The notes below the pieces were generated by a model. It was not told the origin of the DNA. It searched no databases and saw only the letters and a list, made by a program, of their open reading frames with translations. This document shows positions 3,162-25,367 of a DNA stretch of 26,401 bases, piece after piece. Made by a program: the position numbers and the translations under genes. The stretch's first letter is position 1; the number at the start of each line of letters is the position of its first letter. The stretch covers positions 1 through 26,401 of IMG/VR virus record IMGVR_UViG_3300021376_000300. One strand, written 5' to 3'. Source of the stretch: a virus.

Positions 3162-3359
3162 ATGGACACGTTTACAGCAATCAATATAATCGAAGGCATT
3201 GAAGACGCAGAAGAGTTCGAGATTATCGAGGCCTGGCAATATCTGATCGATACAGGCATTGTCTGGAGCCTACAAGGTTTTTACGGTCGCACGGCGCGAG
3301 ATTTAATTGAGACAGGCATGTGCTATCTCAACAATAGCGAAGAAGAATTCGCAGTCTAA
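3162..3359 (+). CDS. DUF7417-like small phage protein
   Basis: 65 residues. The core AWQYLIDTGIVWSLQGFYGR followed by TARDLIETG is a recurrent signature of a small phage protein family that I associate with DUF7417 (from memory, not searched). The function is unknown. The frame reaches back to a TTG at 3129, but ATG 3162 follows AGAGGAGA at proper spacing and is chosen. It is acidic overall and has its own promoter (3103) and terminator (3363), so it behaves as an independent cassette. Confidence 0.82.
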   Translation: MDTFTAINIIEGIEDAEEFEIIEAWQYLIDTGIVWSLQGFYGRTARDLIETGMCYLNNSEEEFAV

Positions 3360-3411: not shown

Positions 3412-3424
3412 GTCCTATTAGGAC
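3412..3424. repeat. Short palindrome abutting the first 12-bp repeat
   Basis: GTCCTA-T-TAGGAC is a perfect inverted repeat whose right arm runs into the first ACTTTACCGGCG copy. It may be part of a protein-binding site. Short palindromes of this size occur by chance. Confidence 0.4.
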
Positions 3425-3446
3425 TTTACCGGCGCGGAGACGCATC

Positions 3447-3620
3447 ATGATTACAAAAGCACAGCAACAAGCTATCCTCAGAATATACAATCGAGACACA
3501 AGTGAAGCCCCGTCTTACCTACAATTCCGTCGCAGAGTATTGCGCGGGTTTGACTGTCTTATGCTACCTTGGAAAGGCATGTGGATTGGGATTGAGACCG
3601 ATGGTTATACTCACACGTGA
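3447..3620 (+). CDS. 57-residue conserved phage protein
   Basis: A short gene with 57 codons: it begins MITKAQQQAILRIYNRDT, continues SYLQFRRRVLRGFDCLMLPW and ends GMWIGIETDGYTHT. The FRRRV, MLPW, GMW-GIE and DGYTH pattern is one I recognise in small uncharacterised phage proteins. GGAGA (3436-3440) lies six bases before the ATG. The first 12-bp repeat sits immediately upstream of the ribosome binding site and a repeat pair follows one base after the TGA, so the gene is bracketed by repeats. The function is unknown. Confidence 0.8.
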   Translation: MITKAQQQAILRIYNRDTSEAPSYLQFRRRVLRGFDCLMLPWKGMWIGIETDGYTHT

Positions 3621-3656
3621 GACTTTACCGGCGCACTGAAACTTTACCGGCGTGAT

Positions 3657-3665
3657 TTCTCCACA
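3657..3665 (+). other. DnaA-box-like 9-mer after a repeat pair
   Basis: TTCTCCACA matches the DnaA box TTATCCACA at 8 of 9 positions, four bases after the repeat at 3641-3652. An identical 9-mer follows the next repeat pair (4052-4060). Single-mismatch boxes are common by chance, so only the shared position is suggestive. Confidence 0.3.
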
Positions 3666-3671
3666 CGCCTC

Positions 3672-3709
3672 GCCCCCCGCGAATTTATTTTTGCGGGGGG
3701 CTTTTATTT
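3672..3709 (+). terminator. Strong rho-independent terminator
   Basis: GCCCCCCGC (3672-3680) and GCGGGGGGC (3693-3701) form a perfect 9-bp stem with a 12-base loop, followed by TTTTATTT. It closes the 57-residue cassette immediately before the next promoter. Confidence 0.9.
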
Positions 3710-3710
3710 G

Positions 3711-3739
3711 TTGACTTTTATTTGACTTGCCTCTATATT
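3711..3739 (+). promoter_or_regulatory. Promoter of the 77-residue gene
   Basis: TTGACT (3711-3716), a 17-base spacer and TATATT (3734-3739): a near-consensus sigma70-type promoter. A second TTGACT begins 11 bases after the first, as at 2109 and 4081. Confidence 0.8.
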
Positions 3740-3770
3740 ATCAGAGTAACGCAAACCAAGGAGAAAGATC

Positions 3771-4004
3771 ATGCGTTCAATTTCCACTATCGCACGCGAG
3801 ATCCGCGCAGACTGGACAAAGCCATACTTTGGCGCAGTCCCATACTTAAGCGCAATGCAGTCTCTCGATAGCATCGAGGATAACTATTATGAGGATAGCG
3901 GCAAATCCGTTGTTCTCTACTTTCTGGCGAACGCGCAGACTTGGAAGGGAGACAAAGCACGGGCGATAAAGGCCGAGCTTAAGAAGCTCTGCGGCATCAA
4001 ATAA
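3771..4004 (+). CDS. Conserved small phage protein (77 residues)
   Basis: 77 residues with SISTIAREIRADWTKPYFGA, VPYLSAMQSLDSIEDNY and VLYFLANAQTWKGDKARAIK segments. I recognise it as a recurrent small phage/plasmid hypothetical family without known function. The C-terminus is basic (KAELKKLCGIK). AAGGAGA precedes the ATG. It has its own near-consensus promoter (3711), is bracketed by 12-bp repeats (3641 and 4012) and is followed by a terminator (4043), so it is a self-contained cassette. Confidence 0.85.
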   Translation: MRSISTIAREIRADWTKPYFGAVPYLSAMQSLDSIEDNYYEDSGKSVVLYFLANAQTWKGDKARAIKAELKKLCGIK

Positions 4005-4042
4005 AATTAGCACTTTACCGGCGCATTGAGACTTTACCGGCG

Positions 4043-4079
4043 CGGGCCCGTTTCTCCACAAGCGGGCCCGTTTTTATTT
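4043..4079 (+). terminator. Rho-independent terminator
   Basis: Two CGGGCCCG blocks (4043-4050 and 4063-4070), each self-complementary, pair with each other around a 12-base loop and are followed by TTTTTATTT. The loop contains a second TTCTCCACA 9-mer (4052-4060). Confidence 0.85.
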
Positions 4080-4080
4080 G

Positions 4081-4108
4081 TTGACTTTCATTTGACTTGT
4101 GTTATTCT
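4081..4108 (+). promoter_or_regulatory. Promoter of the GP88-like gene
   Basis: TTGACT (4081-4086), a 16-base spacer and TATTCT (4103-4108). The block TTGACTTTCATTTGACTTG is nearly identical to that at 3711, which points to duplication of a terminator-promoter module. Confidence 0.65.
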
Positions 4109-4139
4109 TGGCGCGTCAATTCCATAGAAAGGGAACATC

Positions 4140-4787
4140 ATGACAACGTTAAAAGAAGCGCAAAGCGCAGGAAAAATTTCGACGGCTAACTCAAAGATGC
4201 CGGGCTCAACTTTCGGCGTGTCCGCAAAACATTGCAACGTAGGCGGCAAGCTAGCTCAGCTCAAGGGTTCGGTGTGCTATGAATGCTACGCCTTAAAAGC
4301 TCAAAAAAGATGGCCGTCGGTTGACATCGGATGGACCGGCAACTTGGACAAAGCCACGCGCATGATAAGCGCGGACCCTGCCCGCTGGATCGCTTATATG
4401 AGCTTCCAAATTAACAGGGCTTTCCTAAAGACCGGCGAACCCTTCCACCGGTGGTTCGATAGTGGAGACTTGCAATCGGTTGAGATGCTAGAGGCAATCT
4501 GCGACGTCGCACGCGCCACGCCCCAGATCCGCCATTGGCTTCCGACACGCGAGACAAAGATCATTAATGACTTTACCGGCTCGATCCCAGACAATCTTGT
4601 CGTGCGGATCTCGAGCCCGATGATTGATGACAAGCCAATCAACAAATACATATGGACGAGCACGGTCCACAAGAACAGTGAACCGGTCGGGCATGTCTGC
4701 CCTGCCCGTCACCAAGGCAATGCCTGCGGGTCATGCCGCGCTTGTTGGTCAGATGACATCCGAAACATCTCCTACCCCCTCCACTAA
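4140..4787 (+). CDS. GP88/DUF7227-like cysteine-rich phage protein
   Basis: 215 residues of a widespread phage family whose members I recall as GP88 or DUF7227. Signatures: MPGSTFGVSAKHCNVGGKLA, GSVCYECYALKAQ, PFHRWFDSGDLQSVEMLEAI, HWLPTRETKI, and a C-terminal CPARHQGNACGSCRACW. The eight or so conserved cysteines suggest a metal or Fe-S site, which is inference; no biochemical role is established to my knowledge. The ATG follows AAAGGGAACATC. A near-copy of the 12-bp repeat (4570-4581) lies inside the coding frame (DFTGS). Exact repeats bracket the gene and it has its own promoter and terminator. Confidence 0.9.
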   Translation: MTTLKEAQSAGKISTANSKMPGSTFGVSAKHCNVGGKLAQLKGSVCYECYALKAQKRWPSVDIGWTGNLDKATRMISADPARWIAYMSFQINRAFLKTGEPFHRWFDSGDLQSVEMLEAICDVARATPQIRHWLPTRETKIINDFTGSIPDNLVVRISSPMIDDKPINKYIWTSTVHKNSEPVGHVCPARHQGNACGSCRACWSDDIRNISYPLH

Positions 4788-4886
4788 GGGGTAGTTACTC
4801 TTTGCTTAGCTTATTGATACTTTACCGGCGTGCGTGCTACTTTACCGGCGCGACGTTGACAAACCTCCCCTGTCCGTTGCCAACTG

Positions 4887-4923
4887 CCCACGGTTGAGCG
4901 CCTGCGCTCCCGTGGGTCTTTTT
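4887..4923 (+). terminator. Long two-part hairpin terminator
   Basis: CCCACGG (4887-4893) pairs with CCGTGGG (4910-4916). Nested inside, GAGCGC (4896-4901) pairs with GCGCTC (4904-4909) around CT. TCTTTTT follows. It ends the rightward cassette island and its T tract runs straight into the parS-like palindrome. Confidence 0.9.
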
Positions 4924-4938
4924 GTTTCACGTGAAACT
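4923..4938. promoter_or_regulatory. parS: parS-like centromere site
   Basis: TGTTTCACGTGAAACT matches the bacterial parS consensus TGTTTCACGTGAAACA at 15 of 16 positions, with the 14-bp palindrome GTTTCACGTGAAAC (4924-4937) perfect. parS is the site where chromosomal-type ParB loads. The site is intergenic, between the terminator at 4887-4923 and a 12-bp repeat pair whose first copy begins inside it at 4936. No parA or parB gene is visible in the window, so a host or out-of-window ParB would be the reader. The function is inferred from sequence only. Confidence 0.65.
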
Positions 4939-4957
4939 TTACCGGCGCAGTCGGACT

Positions 4958-5380
4958 TTACCGGCGCGACTCATGAATTTTATTCATCTCTGAGCTGATG
5001 AAATCTATCAGGATTTGCCACTTTACCGGCGCACTGAGCACTAGATCTGGTGTCGACTGACCTTTGACCACTAAATCTAGTAGTTTTACACATGAAAAAA
5101 TTTCAACGACCTCTGCCCGTGGACGGCTGACCAAGTTAAACACGTTCGGTAGTATAGTACTTCTTCTTGTCTGCCAAGCAATTTGAGGAGGACGCCACAA
5201 AGAGGCCGCTTGCAAAAGCTTGCGGTGTTCTACCTTGTTCTCAACCCAGAATTCACCAAAGGAGGCGGCTCCGTTAACGTCTGGAATACCAACGCCTGCC
5301 CACGCCTCAATCCGTGTCCAGTGAATCGTCGGTGTCGCTTTGCGCAGAGACTGATACATTTGTTTTTCGGTTTGGAACAA
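4958..5380 (-). CDS. PD-(D/E)XK nuclease next to terS
   Basis: 140 residues. TRIEAWAGVGIPDVNG and EFWVENKV give E25, D34, E47 and K49, the arrangement of a PD-(D/E)XK nuclease core. The following RPPQIAWQTRR resembles the Q-containing motif of VRR-NUC-type phage nucleases. It may be a Holliday-junction or packaging-linked endonuclease. I chose the TTG at 5380 because AAGGAGAT lies at proper spacing; the first ATG is at 5359. The gene overlaps the end of terS by 74 bases. Its last codons are formed by the 12-bp repeat at 4955-4966 and another copy lies inside it (5020-5031, encoding SAPVK), so the C-terminal third may be recently altered. Confidence 0.85.
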   Translation of the reverse strand: MFQTEKQMYQSLRKATPTIHWTRIEAWAGVGIPDVNGAASFGEFWVENKVEHRKLLQAASLWRPPQIAWQTRRSTILPNVFNLVSRPRAEVVEIFSCVKLLDLVVKGQSTPDLVLSAPVKWQILIDFISSEMNKIHESRR

Positions 5381-5900
5381 AGTCTATCTCCTTCGGGGGG
5401 AGCATCGCCTGCTTCAAAGCAGGGTATTGCTCTTGCAGCTTTTGAAGCTCGGCGAGCACCTCCTCACGGGACATCTGATCGATCTTACCAACAAGAATTT
5501 CAGAGCGGCTGATGTAGAGGCCTGCCGCCATGCCACGTTGTTTCTCTGCCGCCACGGCAGGGCCAAGGGCTTTCTGCTCGATGGCAAGGTCACGGAGGCG
5601 GGCGAGCTGGCTGATGTGCGACTCGTAGGTGACCTCATGTTGCTTTGCGAGATCTTTCTCAAGTTGACGGATGCGTTCAATGATCTTGGGGTTGTCCCGC
5701 CCGTTCATGAAGCGAGAGGCCACGACGGCAGGATCCTGATAGCCCGCCTTCTCTGCTGCTTCGGTTTGGTTCATAAACCCAAAGACAAAGTTGCGGCAAA
5801 AGTCCTCCTGTTTCTGGGTCAGCCCAGACTCGAGCTTGGTAAGCACGGTCTTGGGAGGGGCGACAGTCTTCACATAGTGGGTCTGCTTACGATCCTTCAC
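5307..5900 (-). CDS. terS: Terminase small subunit (TerS)
   Basis: 197 residues. The N-terminal region SGLTQKQEDFCRNFVFGFMN, QTEAAEKAGYQDPAVVASR and NPKIIERIRQLEKDL is the DNA-binding helix-turn-helix of Terminase_2-type small subunits, which recognise the packaging site and deliver DNA to TerL. The middle (ISQLARLRDLAIEQKALGPA, VAAEKQRGMAAGLYISRSEI) is the usual helical oligomerisation part. The tail is acidic (SDTDDSLDTD). It starts with GTG at 5900, preceded by a weak AAAGAGAA. Unusually it is separated from terL by about 4 kb that includes opposite-strand genes. The downstream nuclease overlaps it. Confidence 0.88.
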   Translation of the reverse strand: MKDRKQTHYVKTVAPPKTVLTKLESGLTQKQEDFCRNFVFGFMNQTEAAEKAGYQDPAVVASRFMNGRDNPKIIERIRQLEKDLAKQHEVTYESHISQLARLRDLAIEQKALGPAVAAEKQRGMAAGLYISRSEILVGKIDQMSREEVLAELQKLQEQYPALKQAMLPPKEIDFVPNRKTNVSVSAQSDTDDSLDTD

Positions 5901-6009: not shown

Positions 6010-6028
6010 CTATCAAAAGTTTTGATAG
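6010..6028. repeat. Palindrome CTATCAAAA-G-TTTTGATAG
   Basis: Nine-base arms around a single central G. It contains the 13-mer TATCAAAAGTTTT also found in region A at 1923-1935. A plausible operator dyad or leftward promoter element (TTGATA on the reverse strand). Confidence 0.6.
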
Positions 6029-6039
6029 AATATATCGTG

Positions 6040-6197
6040 TAAGCCTTTGAATATATTGATATAGTCATATATCGTACCAATCCAGTATATCTAATCCTAA
6101 AAATTTCTATTTGGGGGCGCGCGCGCAGATTCGGTTTGAAAAATGCATTTTCTCTAAAAGTCCAATATATGACTATATCAATATATTCAAAGACTTA
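6040..6197. repeat. 33-bp inverted repeat with 92-base loop
   Basis: The arm at 6040-6072 is the reverse complement of 6165-6197 with one mismatch; the inner 27 bases (6046-6072 and 6165-6191) are perfect. The arms are AT-rich and include AATATATTGATATAGTC. The 92-base interior includes the GCGCGCGCGC run. It lies entirely between divergent operons. Confidence 0.92.
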
Positions 6198-6270
6198 GCC
6201 AATATATCCTATCACTCTTATAGTATAATATATCAAATGACCAAGGTCAGAGGTCACCGTACAACCACCC

Positions 6271-8184: not shown

Positions 8185-8410
8185 AAGTAATCCAAGAAAG
8201 CTTCTTGATAAGCTTGCCAGTCTTATGAACGGCTATCTGGATGAGGCGACGACCGATAAGGAGAGGGAGTCTGCGATTACTACTGGCCTCCAGACCCTCG
8301 TGAACTTTGCGATTTTGTCGTCTTGCACGACAGGTCTGACGGAAGACGAGATGCACGATGTCGTGCATAAGATTTACTCAGTGTACAATGAAGGCAAAGC
8401 AAATGACTGA
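8171..8410 (+). CDS. Small helical protein, C-terminal half of a split frame
   Basis: 79 residues, predicted helical: SNPRKLLDKLASLMNGYLDE, ESAITTGLQTLVNFAILSSC and LTEDEMHDVVHKIYSVYNE. No family recognised. The ATG is supplied by the 14-bp duplication and overlaps the previous stop by four bases. There is no good independent ribosome binding site, so expression probably depends on coupling. The stop lies just past the next gene's ATG (8403). Confidence 0.72.
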   Translation: MTGDQSNPRKLLDKLASLMNGYLDEATTDKERESAITTGLQTLVNFAILSSCTTGLTEDEMHDVVHKIYSVYNEGKAND

Positions 8411-8798: not shown

Positions 8799-9056
8799 AT
8801 GTCTTTTAAAATATTAAGGGTTAAAGAAGTAATGGCACGGTGTGGGTTGTCGCGAAGCATGATTTACGTTTTGATGGCGGAAAACAAGTTTCCCGCTTCA
8901 ATTAATCTTACAATGCGGTCTATTGGATGGGTCGAGCAAGACATTGAGGATTGGATTTCATCCAGAATTGCCAAGTCGAAAAAAGCCAAGGCGAAAAAAG
9001 CCAAGGCCTTGAAGAAAATGAAAGTTAATTTAAATGACCGTATCCTACATCAATAA
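8799..9056 (+). CDS. AlpA/excisionase-like DNA-binding protein
   Basis: 85 residues. ILRVKEVMARCGLSRSMIYV followed by FPASINLTMRSIGWVEQDIE and DWISSRIAKS is the Phage_AlpA (MerR-like winged helix) pattern: a helix-turn-helix, a variable loop, then W-x-E-x2-I-x2-W. Family members regulate excision or early promoters. The tail is a lysine/alanine run (KKAKAKKAKALKKMK). It overlaps the next gene by 23 bases. No integrase is present in the window. Confidence 0.85.
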   Translation: MSFKILRVKEVMARCGLSRSMIYVLMAENKFPASINLTMRSIGWVEQDIEDWISSRIAKSKKAKAKKAKALKKMKVNLNDRILHQ

Positions 9057-16182: not shown

Positions 16183-17980
16183 AACATATGATCCTAATCT
16201 AAAGACAAAGGGCAGTGGGTGGCCGACCAAGGACGGGTATGTCGTTGGCGTAGCAATTGCCGTCGAAGGCCTGTCTGTTTACCTGCCGATCCGCCACGGT
16301 AAAGGAGCAAATCTACCGCCGAGCATGGTTTTTGAGTATGTGAAAGATCTTTGTTCGAATCCAGAGGCGCACTACATCTTTCACAACGCACAGTATGACG
16401 TGGGTTGGCTAAGGGCAGAGGGCATTGAAGTAAAGGGAACAATCATCGATACGATGGTAGCCGCCCCATTATTGGACGAAAATCGTTTTAGTTATGCGCT
16501 AAATAGTTTGGGCAAGGACTACCTGTTTGAAGTCAAAGACGAACGGATGCTCCGCGATGCGGCGAAGGAGTTTGGTCTTGACCCCAAAGCAGAGCTTCAC
16601 CTGCTCCCTGCAATGTACGTCGGTAAGTACGCAGAGCAGGACGCGGCGCTGACACTCCGACTGTGGTACCATTTCAGGGGCATGATCCAAAATGATGGCC
16701 TTGAACAGATCTTTGAAGTTGAATCTCAGATCTTGCGTATTGCCATCGATATGCGGACCAGAGGTGTCAGGATTGATCTGGAGAAGACTGAGAGTGCCGG
16801 TAAAGATCTCGTTGCAAAAGAGTGTGAGATCATTGCTTCTGTAAAGAAAGAGTACGGAATTGATGTAGACATTTGGGCGGCAGCCTCTGTGGCAAAGGGC
16901 TTTGACAAGCTGGGGCTTGACTACAACCGCACCCCAAAAGGACAGCCAAGCTTTACAAAAGACTTTCTCAAGAATCACGCACATCCTTTCGCACAGTCCG
17001 TGGTCAAGGCCCGTGAGCTGAACAAGGCGCATTCGACATTCATTGAAACAATCTTGCGCCATCAAAACAATGGTCGCTTGCACCCTGAAATGCATCAACT
17101 TCGCAGTGATGACGGCGGCACGGTAACGGGTCGGTTCAGTTATTCGAACCCCAACCTTCAGCAGATTCCGTCCCGCGATCAGAACATCTCCTCGTTGATC
17201 CGGTCGTTGTTTCTCCCCGAGCAGGGTGAGACATGGGGCTCGTTTGACTACGCTTCGCAGGAGCCACGTCTTGTCGTTCACTACGCAAAATCTTTAGATT
17301 TGTACGGGTCAGACGAGTTTGTTAACGCGTTCTTGGACGATCCTCGCACTGACTTTCATCAGCTTGCGGCTGATCTTATGGGTGTAACGCGCAAGGAAGC
17401 AAAGACAATCGGCTTGGGCTTAATCTATGGTATGGGAATCAACAAGCTATCGCATCAGCTTGGTGTGGATCTTGACGAGGCCAAAAGTCTGTCCCGTAAG
17501 TATCACCGGAATATCCCGTTCCTTAAAGAGCTTGCCGATAAATGCTCGGGCAGGGCAAGCCGTTCACCCTATCTGATCCGCACCTTGCTCCATCGCCGGT
17601 GTCGGTTCCCAATGTGGGAACCTGTATCCGTATCACGGGATGAGCCTGTGCGTACACCATACGACCGCGAGAAAGCTGAGCAGACATATGGGCCCAACAA
17701 CATCAAGGTGGCCTTTGCCTATAAGGCACTGAACCGTTTGATTCAAGGGTCTGCCGCCGATCAGACCAAGATGGCAATGGTTGAGTTACACAAGGAAGGC
17801 TTGTTGCCTCTCGTCCAAATTCACGACGAGTTGGCAATGTCTGTTCCGGATAGAGATACGGCAAACAAAGTGCGTGAAATAATGGAGTCTTGTGTAAGAC
17901 TCTATGTACCTAGTGTTGTTGACATGGAGTGTGGTCCTAACTGGGGATCACTCAAAGAAGGTTGGTACGAAGCTGAGTAA
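16082..17980 (+). CDS. polA: Family A DNA polymerase with 3'-5' exonuclease, Leu762 type
   Basis: 632 residues (from ATG 16082; ATGs at 16085 and 16091 are equally possible). Proofreading exonuclease: CIDLETYDP (D32, E34), FHNAQYDVGWL, and YAEQDAALTLRL. Polymerase: TVTGRFSYSNPNLQQIPSR, motif A SFDYASQEPRL (D389), motif B RKEAKTIGLGLIYG (K441, Y449) and motif C IHDEL (H581, D582, E583). At the residue equivalent to E. coli Phe762 it has Leu445. There is no 5'-3' exonuclease domain, as usual for phage PolA. It replicates the phage genome. The N-terminus overlaps the preceding small gene. Confidence 0.96.
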   Translation: MMSMFFVKPPETEWVMPTEIPDLRGAKEFCIDLETYDPNLKTKGSGWPTKDGYVVGVAIAVEGLSVYLPIRHGKGANLPPSMVFEYVKDLCSNPEAHYIFHNAQYDVGWLRAEGIEVKGTIIDTMVAAPLLDENRFSYALNSLGKDYLFEVKDERMLRDAAKEFGLDPKAELHLLPAMYVGKYAEQDAALTLRLWYHFRGMIQNDGLEQIFEVESQILRIAIDMRTRGVRIDLEKTESAGKDLVAKECEIIASVKKEYGIDVDIWAAASVAKGFDKLGLDYNRTPKGQPSFTKDFLKNHAHPFAQSVVKARELNKAHSTFIETILRHQNNGRLHPEMHQLRSDDGGTVTGRFSYSNPNLQQIPSRDQNISSLIRSLFLPEQGETWGSFDYASQEPRLVVHYAKSLDLYGSDEFVNAFLDDPRTDFHQLAADLMGVTRKEAKTIGLGLIYGMGINKLSHQLGVDLDEAKSLSRKYHRNIPFLKELADKCSGRASRSPYLIRTLLHRRCRFPMWEPVSVSRDEPVRTPYDREKAEQTYGPNNIKVAFAYKALNRLIQGSAADQTKMAMVELHKEGLLPLVQIHDELAMSVPDRDTANKVREIMESCVRLYVPSVVDMECGPNWGSLKEGWYEAE

Positions 17981-22900: not shown

Positions 22901-25367
22901 TTTCCATGACGGTCTTAGGCGTGCGGCCTTCCAATTCCTTCGCAAGCCAGCGAGCACCCTTCTCGGCAACCCACTCAGAAAAGTCCTGATAATACTTTCC
23001 GGCAGGAGATTCGGATCCTTTAGCAGACATGCTTGTTGCAATATCTGATGGGACAGTTTTTGCCGAAGAACTCATGAAACGATTGAACTGTTCTTCGGTA
23101 ATACCTGCTGTTTTGATAATTGACTGCTTGGCCGCAGGTTGTTTTATTCTTCCAGAATAACCCATCTCTCGAACAAACGTGAATCTCTCAAAAGCAGAGG
23201 CGTTCTTTTCTTTCAAATACTGCTGAAAGATCTCATCGCGAGTTTTTTGGTCAGACGTTTTAATCCAATAGTCTTCAGTAAGATGAGCCAACTCGTGGAA
23301 AAGAGTGTGCAGAAAAGCAACCTTAGGGGTCTGCCCATATTTCGCCGATGCCGTAAAATTAAGTTCAATCGCCGAGCCGGAAACTTCTTTGCCGCCGTAA
23401 ATTTTTTTACCCTTTTTTACGCCGCCAACAATCTGTGTTCTTTGATCGCCCGCGCCTACTGTGCGACCAAGAGATCCCATCTGATTGTTTGTGGAAACCG
23501 TAAGATTTGACCCCGGGAAAAGGTCACGTTGAATTTGACGAATAATATCCGCTGATCCCGGAAGCATGTTCTCAAGCGCCCGCTCTGTAGTACCTTTAAA
23601 GGTGATCGTTGTAGGTGCAATAGGACGCGGAGGCGTTGGGATAGCCGGAGGCGTCTGGACAGGGGGTGCCTGAACAGGTGGAGTCGGGGCAGGTACGGTG
23701 AGTGCCGGTGCTTTCGGTGCAGCAGGTGCTTTCGGTGCAGCAGGTGCTTTCGGTGCAGCAGGTGCTTTCGGTGCAGCAGGTGCTTTCGGTGCAGCACCCT
23801 CTGGAATGGTAGCGCCGCTGACAATCTCGGGGTACTTGGGACCTCTGCGGGAGAAATCTACAGGAATAACACCCGACATCTCTCCTTTGCTATAATTGAC
23901 AGCGGCAAGATTTCTTATGTGCTGACGTACAGCTCCAGCAATCGGGTCAATGAGAGCGTCGTCAAACCCCACTTTACGCAAGAAGTCGCGATACTCAACA
24001 TCACGGCTGCTTTTTTCTGACTGAGATACGAAATACAGCGCCTTGTCTACGTCGTTAAAAAACAACGGGGTGTATGAGCCTCCTCCAAAGTTAATTGGCT
24101 TGGGCTTGGCCCCGGAAAGATTTTGAGGAAGGGAGAAAACCGGCAGCTGTGTATGCGGCCCGTCAAGGGGATCTCCCTCAAGATACGGACTTGCGGGTTT
24201 CGCAGGCTTGGTAGGCGGAGCCTCGTCAGAAGGAGTAGCTTCTGTTTCCGGTGCAGCTTCAGTGTCGCCAGCCGGAGGCGGAGGAATAACCGGTGTGTCA
24301 GGTGTCAACGGCTTTCCGTCAGTTCCGATCCGAACACGAGTAGGACGTTGCCCAAATGCAGCCTCAAACGGGCCACCTATAATCGCACCAAGTGTGCCGC
24401 CAAGAATTGCCGACTGAGCAACGCCAGAGGATGTTGGGACATTGACGCCCTCTCTTTGAAGAGCGACGTTCTGGGCAAGTTGTTCCTGTCCCTCTTGCAG
24501 GGCTTCCGGAATTGCTTCTATCGCAGCGCCTTTCAACAGGCGTTTGCGAAGGCCTGCGCCGCCCATCTCAACGTAGCCTTCCTTCGCACCGGTCTTTGCC
24601 ATCTGCTCCGCAGTGGCTTCAGCCAGTTTCTTGAAAGATTCTTTTTCGGAGACGCGCTTGAGGATCTTTGAGGAGATAAGTTTTACTGCACCTCTCTCAA
24701 GACCAGTTGAACCGGCAAGACCACCGAGAAGCGCACCCACAACAATTTGATCTAAGTTCTTGCCGTTATAGGCTTGTGCAACTTGTGCGCGAGCAGCAAT
24801 GTCCTCGTCTGACAAGTCGGTGTTCTGCTTAAGTTCCTGCGTGATGGCATCATAGATGTCGCCTTTAACTGTACCAACACCACCGACTGCACCCAAAGCT
24901 GCGCCGCTAAGAGGGCCCCCTGCCAAAGCCGCGATGATGTAGGGTGCTGTACCACCGGCAAGGCTTGCAATAGTATCAACGGGTGCAATTTTAATATATT
25001 CCCAAGAAGCCACGAGGTTTGCAAGGACACCTTCGTCCTTTGCTTTTGCAAGAACTTCTTGCTGAGCCTTGGCGTCCTTGTAATACTGGGCGGACATGTA
25101 CTCGCCCAACAAATCTTCGATGCCGCGCACGTTTTGAGAGAATTCATTGTTCGCACCAAAGGCATCACTAATATTGCGAACGCTCATGGCTACGTTACGA
25201 GCAAAGTTGAGTGGTACGTCTGCTATTGCACGCAGCTTCGGATATTCATCCTTCTGTTCTTCAGGAGGAGCGGGACGGTAAGCCTTAAAAGGAGCCGTTG
25301 GGTCAAACGCTCGCGAGGCTCCGGAGACCGGAACCGCCGCATATGGAGCAGAAGGATCAAAAGCCAT
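19950..25367 (-). CDS. Giant polyvalent virion-type protein with zincin protease motif and LPD38-like region
   Basis: 1805 residues. The N-terminus repeats AFDPSAPY/AFDPTAPF. Glycine-rich hydrophobic segments (about 132-168, 207-222 and 313-336) look membrane-active. A Pro/Ala/Lys linker has AAPKAP repeated five times (about 524-554). A metallopeptidase motif HELAH (691-695), in LHTLFHELAHLTEDYW, indicates a zincin. The C-terminal ~800 residues (RLGVTSMPAFQIANMYRGLI, VNLVNFSRSGTGRGVFGS) resemble the large polyvalent protein-associated domain LPD38. Such proteins are packaged and injected with DNA in short-tailed phages; the protease would act on host or virion proteins. It is late, cotranscribed with the endolysin. 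Family assignment was made by eye. Confidence 0.87.
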   Translation of the reverse strand: MAFDPSAPYAAVPVSGASRAFDPTAPFKAYRPAPPEEQKDEYPKLRAIADVPLNFARNVAMSVRNISDAFGANNEFSQNVRGIEDLLGEYMSAQYYKDAKAQQEVLAKAKDEGVLANLVASWEYIKIAPVDTIASLAGGTAPYIIAALAGGPLSGAALGAVGGVGTVKGDIYDAITQELKQNTDLSDEDIAARAQVAQAYNGKNLDQIVVGALLGGLAGSTGLERGAVKLISSKILKRVSEKESFKKLAEATAEQMAKTGAKEGYVEMGGAGLRKRLLKGAAIEAIPEALQEGQEQLAQNVALQREGVNVPTSSGVAQSAILGGTLGAIIGGPFEAAFGQRPTRVRIGTDGKPLTPDTPVIPPPPAGDTEAAPETEATPSDEAPPTKPAKPASPYLEGDPLDGPHTQLPVFSLPQNLSGAKPKPINFGGGSYTPLFFNDVDKALYFVSQSEKSSRDVEYRDFLRKVGFDDALIDPIAGAVRQHIRNLAAVNYSKGEMSGVIPVDFSRRGPKYPEIVSGATIPEGAAPKAPAAPKAPAAPKAPAAPKAPAAPKAPALTVPAPTPPVQAPPVQTPPAIPTPPRPIAPTTITFKGTTERALENMLPGSADIIRQIQRDLFPGSNLTVSTNNQMGSLGRTVGAGDQRTQIVGGVKKGKKIYGGKEVSGSAIELNFTASAKYGQTPKVAFLHTLFHELAHLTEDYWIKTSDQKTRDEIFQQYLKEKNASAFERFTFVREMGYSGRIKQPAAKQSIIKTAGITEEQFNRFMSSSAKTVPSDIATSMSAKGSESPAGKYYQDFSEWVAEKGARWLAKELEGRTPKTVMEKFQSDVLKSMRDIFSYISNLLGITPTEGAFEKLLTEVYGVETKVPDKGQIRQRRVITPSATPNIISAQAQPSQEGTQVVSKEAKIPPTTTATPPTLSEFATFVTGPTNDSSWFAKTLAEITGAEKIVVNGKVTYEPMFKALLRNTVAANLPFLERPEFRQVGRLLESVQNMQGRLVGMIKFGALAYDPATNEFKFDSTTGGLQELFEEAGVARQGEIQALTVAMREYDLRKANRSGLGFENEKTGRPFTMGELKSIIDNADPELKKIAEKYRYFNSKMIKFALDTGIITKEQSEAFLSMMYTPFYRKQEEGLQKDGNLILSPEVDGAIKDPQSIKDFSPKLKNGKIKLDPDFYANVLRNYSAIVTMGLKNVAYSKVAKVGAEYVAKTKDRSLVEPVGKGGGEGVITYRVAGGEKHFRVNDVPMFQALASLSPKQLQGWMKFFTRLTELLRLGVTSMPAFQIANMYRGLIDTYIKTGMPFFELATETFKLMGSGFNQTLRQGFLDNPSYRAIIAQQGFGGYNIGSRSKDQAEYMLRQYALKAGTPTYKQRAMAIIDMLEEIGELSEMAPRIAYYNWLTKSKDKGGSGMAPADAAYEAVNLVNFSRSGTGRGVFGSAIAFLIPLVPFLNARVQGLYRLIEPNTAGGANKDVVAKFGGAVGITNAIVARGALLLMFELALQAMYGDDEWYDKLSVQDKVSNNYVKVGDTIIALPRPFELGSLFGAVPSLVIDAARKKESEELVEGLTHILSTTFSFNAIPQAVKPLVDVYYANRESFTGQQIENISEQKRPENERVDEYTSEVAKLVAKGVPYLSPKQADALLRGYLGTFATVMTGTIDGLLSGGGTRPEGYFGDPTSFQGMLANVAGLNRFFKTERSIRNDYVSKFYEVKRTVEQITNSMRDAAEAKDFELVKEKIADNPRAAALGKVLNSVERDINEINKKMRSIRNNPNLPAEKKTEYLNTLRDRKATLSERAYKVAKEVGYN
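23707..23796 (+). repeat. 18-bp tandem repeat, five identical copies
   Basis: GGTGCTTTCGGTGCAGCA is repeated five times without a difference (23707-23796). On the coding (minus) strand it encodes AAPKAP units of the linker in the polyvalent protein. Identity at the DNA level implies recent expansion. Length changes stay in frame. Confidence 0.97.

Follow-up and report, generated by a model that had tools for sequence, protein, structure and literature searches.

A 12-mer, ACTTTACCGGCG (termed R), is repeated in one orientation in a small gene island of the IMG/VR virus record IMGVR_UViG_3300021376_000300. The 26,401 bp analysed, referred to as the window, are a piece of a tailed-phage genome whose polymerase has its closest named relatives, at about 50% identity, in DSL-LC04 and in the pelagiphages HTVC023P and HTVC027P. 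The R cluster is real and is not a product of chance. The copies are exactly conserved in related phages and lie close to sequences that resemble promoters and terminators; the layout recurs elsewhere with other repeats. With about even confidence, the array is read as a lineage-specific, one-way control region, similar to an operator or stoperator, for a DNA-binding protein.

Ten exact copies of R are present, all on the plus strand, with starts at 3423, 3622, 3641, 4012, 4031, 4819, 4839, 4936, 4955 and 5020, together with an 11 of 12 copy, ACTTTACCGGCT, that starts at 4570 on the same strand. These eleven sites between 3423 and 5031 are those reported in a preliminary description of this DNA. 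Start-to-start distances along the eleven are 199, 19, 371, 19, 539, 249, 20, 97, 19 and 65 bp, and the four pairs previously described (19, 19, 20 and 19 bp) are thus confirmed. The sole further match in the window at up to two mismatches is at 16795 on the minus strand. At this threshold the 12 matches observed compare with a mean of 1.3 (maximum 6) in shuffled sequences, and no 12-mer of any kind occurs more than three times in 300 first-order Markov simulations. In the window one 12-mer has ten exact copies, in agreement with the rarity originally claimed for the cluster.

On the plus strand the island carries ORF76 (3162-3359, DUF7417 family), ORF57 (3447-3620, a cassette gene), ORF77 (3771-4004, phrog_13953, widespread in phages) and a gp88-like gene (4140-4787, Pfam GP88, PF17338). 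Convergent to these, on the minus strand, are a VRR-Nuc-like nuclease gene (4958-5380) and the terminase small subunit gene terS (5307-5900, Terminase_2, PF03592). The VRR-Nuc name comes from a reading of the sequence by eye and from phrog_2165; the protein of the window has no Pfam match. Consensus matches locate putative promoters of the TTGACT type before ORF76, ORF77 and gp88, and intrinsic terminators in the spacers.

Copy 1 is single (3423-3434) and lies 12 bp upstream of the ORF57 start. An R pair comes after the stop codon of each of ORF57, ORF77 and gp88. Pair 2-3 (3622-3633 and 3641-3652, spacer CACTGAA) begins 1 nt past the ORF57 stop; it is followed by a predicted plus-strand terminator (3672-3705) and, 58 bp past the pair, by the putative sigma70-type promoter of ORF77 (3711-3739, plus strand, TTGACT-17-TATATT). 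Pair 4-5 (4012-4023 and 4031-4042, spacer CATTGAG), past the ORF77 stop, is followed in the same manner by a predicted terminator (4042-4075, plus strand) and, 38 bp past the pair, by the putative sigma70-type promoter of the gp88-like gene (4081-4108, plus strand, TTGACT-16-TATTCT). Pair 6-7 (4819-4830 and 4839-4850, spacer TGCGTGCT) is downstream of the gp88-like gene, as is a further predicted plus-strand terminator (4887-4923). Pair 8-9 (4936-4947 and 4955-4966, spacer CAGTCGG) is at the 3' end of the VRR-Nuc-like gene, and copy 10 (5020-5031), a single one, is within this gene, where it codes for APVK on the minus strand. The 11 of 12 copy (4570-4581) is within the gp88-like gene; G003, a related contig, has the identical sequence, and another relative, L009, has a different 11 of 12 version. 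Plain protein conservation may not account for it, as gp88 proteins at greater distance do not keep the encoded DFTG. Eight of the ten exact copies are intergenic, and all point along ORF57-ORF77-gp88 transcription, as operator or stoperator sites do. The initial statement that no gene explains the array is true of eight of the eleven copies and fails for those at 5020, 4570 and, in part, 4955, which are located inside genes.

R pairs were found in five further IMG/VR contigs, L010, L012, L013, L009 and G003. The first three are nearly identical in the island and add little independent evidence, so that the R clade comprises three lineages (the window, L009 and G003); searches for absence are weak in fragments. 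In the 67 kb of G003, exact and one-mismatch copies are found at 27487-29657 and none elsewhere. Both presence in close relatives and confinement of R to the array, two checks proposed at the outset, thus gave favourable results. Between the window, G003 and L009 the R columns are 95-97% identical, the shortfall from 100% being at spots where the aligner failed to pair copies, whereas the rest of the island is 75.5-81.5% identical. The distances from R to the promoters of ORF77 and gp88 are 58 and 38 bp in the window, 60 and 38 bp in G003, and 66 and 30 bp in L009, which also has a degenerate third R copy closer to the promoter. R goes with the promoter and not with the terminator, as the L009 terminator after ORF77 precedes the R copies.

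Mechanistically, R would be the recognition site of a sequence-specific DNA-binding protein, probably one encoded by the phage, and its copies and pairs would mark the borders of single-gene transcription units that consist of a promoter, a gene and a terminator. A protein on the R pairs would determine when the sigma70-type promoters downstream are active, would stop transcripts of the upstream unit from reading through and from running into the convergent VRR-Nuc and terS genes, or would do both. The preliminary description proposed a replication or regulatory protein binding array. The regulatory alternative is supported by the exact conservation, the single orientation, the promoter-linked positions and the parallel arrays described below; the replication origin is not supported.

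One likeness is to the stoperators and operators of the L5-type repressors in cluster A mycobacteriophages, which are 13 bp in length, asymmetric, present in many copies in promoters and short intergenic spaces, and oriented with transcription (PMC9283540). R resembles these sites in being short and asymmetric, and in placement, orientation and copy number. However, L5 sites span the whole genome, whereas R is limited to 1.6 kb and is mostly paired, and a repressor gene of the L5 type is not recognised in the R phage. Regulators of the OmpR/PhoB type also use tandem direct sites linked to promoters, and the half-sites of one of these, KdpE, are 6-bp AT-rich direct repeats (PMC3264566). R differs in having 12 bp at 19-20 bp spacing, and in that the candidate protein discussed below has no family match.

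Arrays with other words were sought in 80 gp88 loci, a sample not selected for repeats. Fourteen of these have a convergent VRR-Nuc gene, as detected by BLAST, within 900 bp; two of the 14 (L020 and L021) had been seen beforehand. With Poisson statistics on a second-order Markov background, the strongest same-strand word near gp88 in the 14 loci has a median -log10 p of 7.6, compared with 4.6 for windows in other parts of these contigs (p=7e-6) and with 5.7 in gp88 loci that have no convergent VRR-Nuc gene (p=0.008). Copies of the words number 81 on the same strand and one on the opposite strand, a ratio somewhat inflated because the best word was chosen by maximum count. The words vary by locus and include GTTTAGTGT, CGCAAGG, GGCCGCAG, GGTCGCAG, CAAGC and others; L020 and L021 are laid out like HTVC027P (described below), their heptads being CGCAG and CAAGC. 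In about 10 of the 14 loci, motif copies are found within 60 bp upstream of the gp88 -35 box (TTGACA or TTGACT), and repeat content directly upstream of gp88 is high (z>2) in 10 of 16 versus 6 of 59 gp88 loci. Judged by these sequence layouts, the window array is one version of an arrangement that other phages have with different repeat words. Repeats of 023Pt_psg01 were dismissed as weak and not the top cluster of the genome, and those near terS in DSL-LC04 were dismissed as resembling ribosome-binding sites. The C-terminal tails of two VRR-Nuc proteins (L021 3400-3777; L114 8217-8588, which is HTVC027P) are composed of the DNA repeats, read as LEACGLx units, and this suggests a constraint at the DNA level. 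Homologues of ORF77 in other large phages (L040, L044, L049) have different per-gene intergenic repeats around them (ATGTAACCTTT; TATAACCACTTA; a unit of ∼90 bp).

HTVC027P, a cultured Pelagibacter phage, has 16 matches to (GCTTGNN)2 at 16506-17737, all oriented alike; its 57.6 kb hold a single further match, which is stray and reversed. The repeats are found within a VRR-Nuc gene that lacks annotation, at its 3' end, in the gap to gp88, and upstream of gp33 (the gp88-like gene) and gp34. In an infection time course, gp33 and gp34 alone form an extra temporal cluster, with high expression at 6-9 h (PMC12753301). These are the two HTVC027P genes that have arrays upstream of promoters. The tie between the arrays and the temporal cluster is drawn here and not by the authors of the time course, and it is correlative.

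A broader proposal is put forward tentatively, with somewhat less than even confidence: the island of gp88, convergent VRR-Nuc and terS may be a recurrent, previously undescribed locus type in which the one-way array layout is kept while the repeat word is replaced in each lineage. It would mark a fast-evolving, private protein-DNA recognition, either of a regulator or of packaging specificity, sometimes accompanied by a site that resembles parS, for the ParB of the host. An orphan repeat cluster would then become one case of a recurrent phage arrangement, and several of the phages concerned are pelagiphages. Should the arrays prove to be private codes, of operators or of packaging, that change with the lineage, then setting array words against the protein that co-varies with them would show how recognition is encoded. 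This could also account for the odd timing of gp88, a gene that is common in phages and whose function is unknown. A testable prediction follows for HTVC027P.

Several observations weigh against a control region. The R copies at the VRR-Nuc end are oriented against that gene, the sites are 30-66 bp from -35 boxes with a variable distance to the promoter, and no promoter lies downstream of the copies that come after gp88 or fall within the VRR-Nuc gene. Most parallel arrays have a 7-bp period, unlike R. The temporal cluster concerns another phage and another repeat and is a correlation, and the neighbouring gp30 of HTVC027P falls in a further cluster (PMC12753301). Finally, no binder was identified: the protein encoded at 8403 (130 amino acids) has no family match and gives a poor structural model (predicted local distance difference test, pLDDT, 49).

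The 8403 protein is listed as a candidate binder because it shares the known distribution of R, and for no other reason. It is present in G003 at 73% identity, whereas 50,697 phage records and the other array-bearing phages gave no match. Its C-terminal segment looks by eye like an OmpR-type winged helix, for which profile, sequence and structure searches give no support; the model is too poor to search with, and the PDB sequence search returned designed proteins only. The AlpA-like protein (8799) is an unlikely dedicated binder because G003, which has R intact, does not encode it. A DnaA-IV-like protein was rejected as a general binder, as none turned up in the further phages with arrays that were tested, a search that had no positive control. 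The gp88 model is of high confidence (pLDDT 96), yet it has no significant PDB match and resembles only other viral gp88-like proteins; a DNA-binding fold is thus not shown for it. The family of DNA-binding proteins that most array-bearing phages have in common is TerS (Terminase_2).

This raises the question of whether the array is a packaging (pac) region, with R pairs contacted by the helix-turn-helix ring of the small terminase from the adjoining gene to mark the start of packaging. It is the main rival to a control region, although an unlikely one. The repeats end at 5031, next to terS, and terS was found in 12 of the 14 parallel loci by BLAST and in eight of 10 tested records by profile. 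The orientation of R is fixed whatever the gene strand, even inside the VRR-Nuc gene, and this would suit a directional DNA signal. There is also a precedent: SPP1 pac has three direct-repeat sets around the terS start, and SF6 is without the SPP1 boxA repeats and has a different pair instead (PMC4737164). R is comparable as a set of direct repeats beside terS that differs between relatives. But R is downstream of terS and extends over 1.6 kb with genes between the copies, many parallel arrays abut promoters, and the orientation of terS relative to the array varies by lineage. Adjacency to terS was rejected as a general rule, since among polymerase relatives there is no excess of repeats near terS (only four loci were usable). 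The TerS domains of SF6, moreover, bind pac without sequence preference (PMC4737164).

Perhaps R copies are cassette boundaries, short homologies that let individual genes move into and out of the island; this is improbable as the function of the array. Gene gain and loss do fall between R copies: ORF57 is missing from L009, and ORF55 and an HNH-like gene are found only in G003, where ORF55 is surrounded by a duplicated R-terminator block. Spacers of the pairs are not conserved and are apparently shuffled, CATTGAG being in pair 2 of the window and pair 1 of G003, and CAGTCGG in pair 4 and pair 2, respectively. Gene cassettes are thus probably exchanged between R copies, but R is present in nearly every spacer and would bound whole-gene changes in any case, so that this need not be what the array is for. 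Cassette exchange requires neither exact conservation over three lineages nor copies within two genes. ORF55 was found nowhere else, and ORF55 and ORF57 as mobile genes had essentially no occurrences elsewhere. The PeSL elements of T4-type phages are mobile regulatory cassettes with repeated promoter/stem-loop intergenic units and exchangeable small genes. R is alike in repeated intergenic units and exchangeable small genes, but it is a short unstructured word of one island, with no promoter/hairpin unit. The HNH-like gene (L011 7703-8149, minus strand) lies within the G003 array, has a degenerate inverted R alongside, and gave no significant family match.

It is very improbable that the array is an origin of replication in which the R copies are iterons and an initiator, for example the DnaA-IV-like protein at 9034, binds them. 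Like the iterons of theta plasmids and phage origins, R consists of direct repeats near two helical turns; the 9034 gene encodes a weak match to the DnaA C-terminus (E=0.004), and the cumulative GC-skew minimum of G003, at 26425, is about 1 kb from the array. This minimum coincides with a change of gene direction and is therefore not independent evidence, and in pelagiphage relatives the skew turns far from the arrays. The 19-20 bp spacing of the pairs holds in the window but is 17-20 bp in relatives, groups are 65-540 bp apart, and the near-constant period of iterons is not seen. The DnaA box TTATNCACA has no exact occurrence in the window, the DnaA-IV-like gene is 4 kb away rather than adjacent, and a search of other phages with arrays, which had no positive control, gave no relative of it. 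The iteron interpretation originally offered is thus not upheld.

Least credible of all is an RNA element bound in 3' untranslated regions by an RNA-binding protein or regulatory RNA: several copies do sit past a stop codon and ahead of a stable hairpin, but R has no consistent RNA structure and no Rfam match, and the copies at 4936-5031 are antisense at or in the VRR-Nuc gene, past a terminator. Clustered regularly interspaced short palindromic repeats or other RNA-structured repeats were rejected, as neither a regular array nor a conserved fold was found.

Other inverted sequences adjoin R. At 3649-3669 and in relatives, a hairpin overlaps the second R of a pair, with stems that have changed and remain paired (GGCGTG/CACGCC; GGCGCG/CGCGCC); its loop, TTTCTCC, is complementary to the GGAGAAA ribosome-binding sites of island genes. 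A parS-like palindrome, TGTTTCACGTGAAACT, at 4923-4938 overlaps R copy 8 by 3 bp and matches the chromosomal parS consensus at 15 of 16 positions. It is retained in L009 and degraded in G003. In 2.13 Mb of loci the sequence TTTCACGTGAAA occurs 30 times (in ∼10 different contexts, with some redundancy), versus 0-3 for shuffled palindromes, and several occurrences are close to gp88/VRR-Nuc islands. From its sequence, recruitment of host ParB to such a site is possible; literature searches on parS in phages gave nothing usable. Just past the last R, within the VRR-Nuc gene at 5040-5083, are the palindrome-like copies CACTAGATCTGGTG and CACTAAATCTAGTAG; ACTAGATCTAGT is perfect in G003 and L009. 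These may be coding (LLDLV, PDLVL).

Two further repeats in the window are outside the island. A 55-nt inverted repeat with arms 87% complementary and 82 nt apart is at 6023-6214, in an intergenic region upstream of a rightward operon. An 18-bp tandem repeat (GGTGCAGC, PKAPAA units) is at 23698-23800, within the gene of a virion protein of 1805 amino acids.
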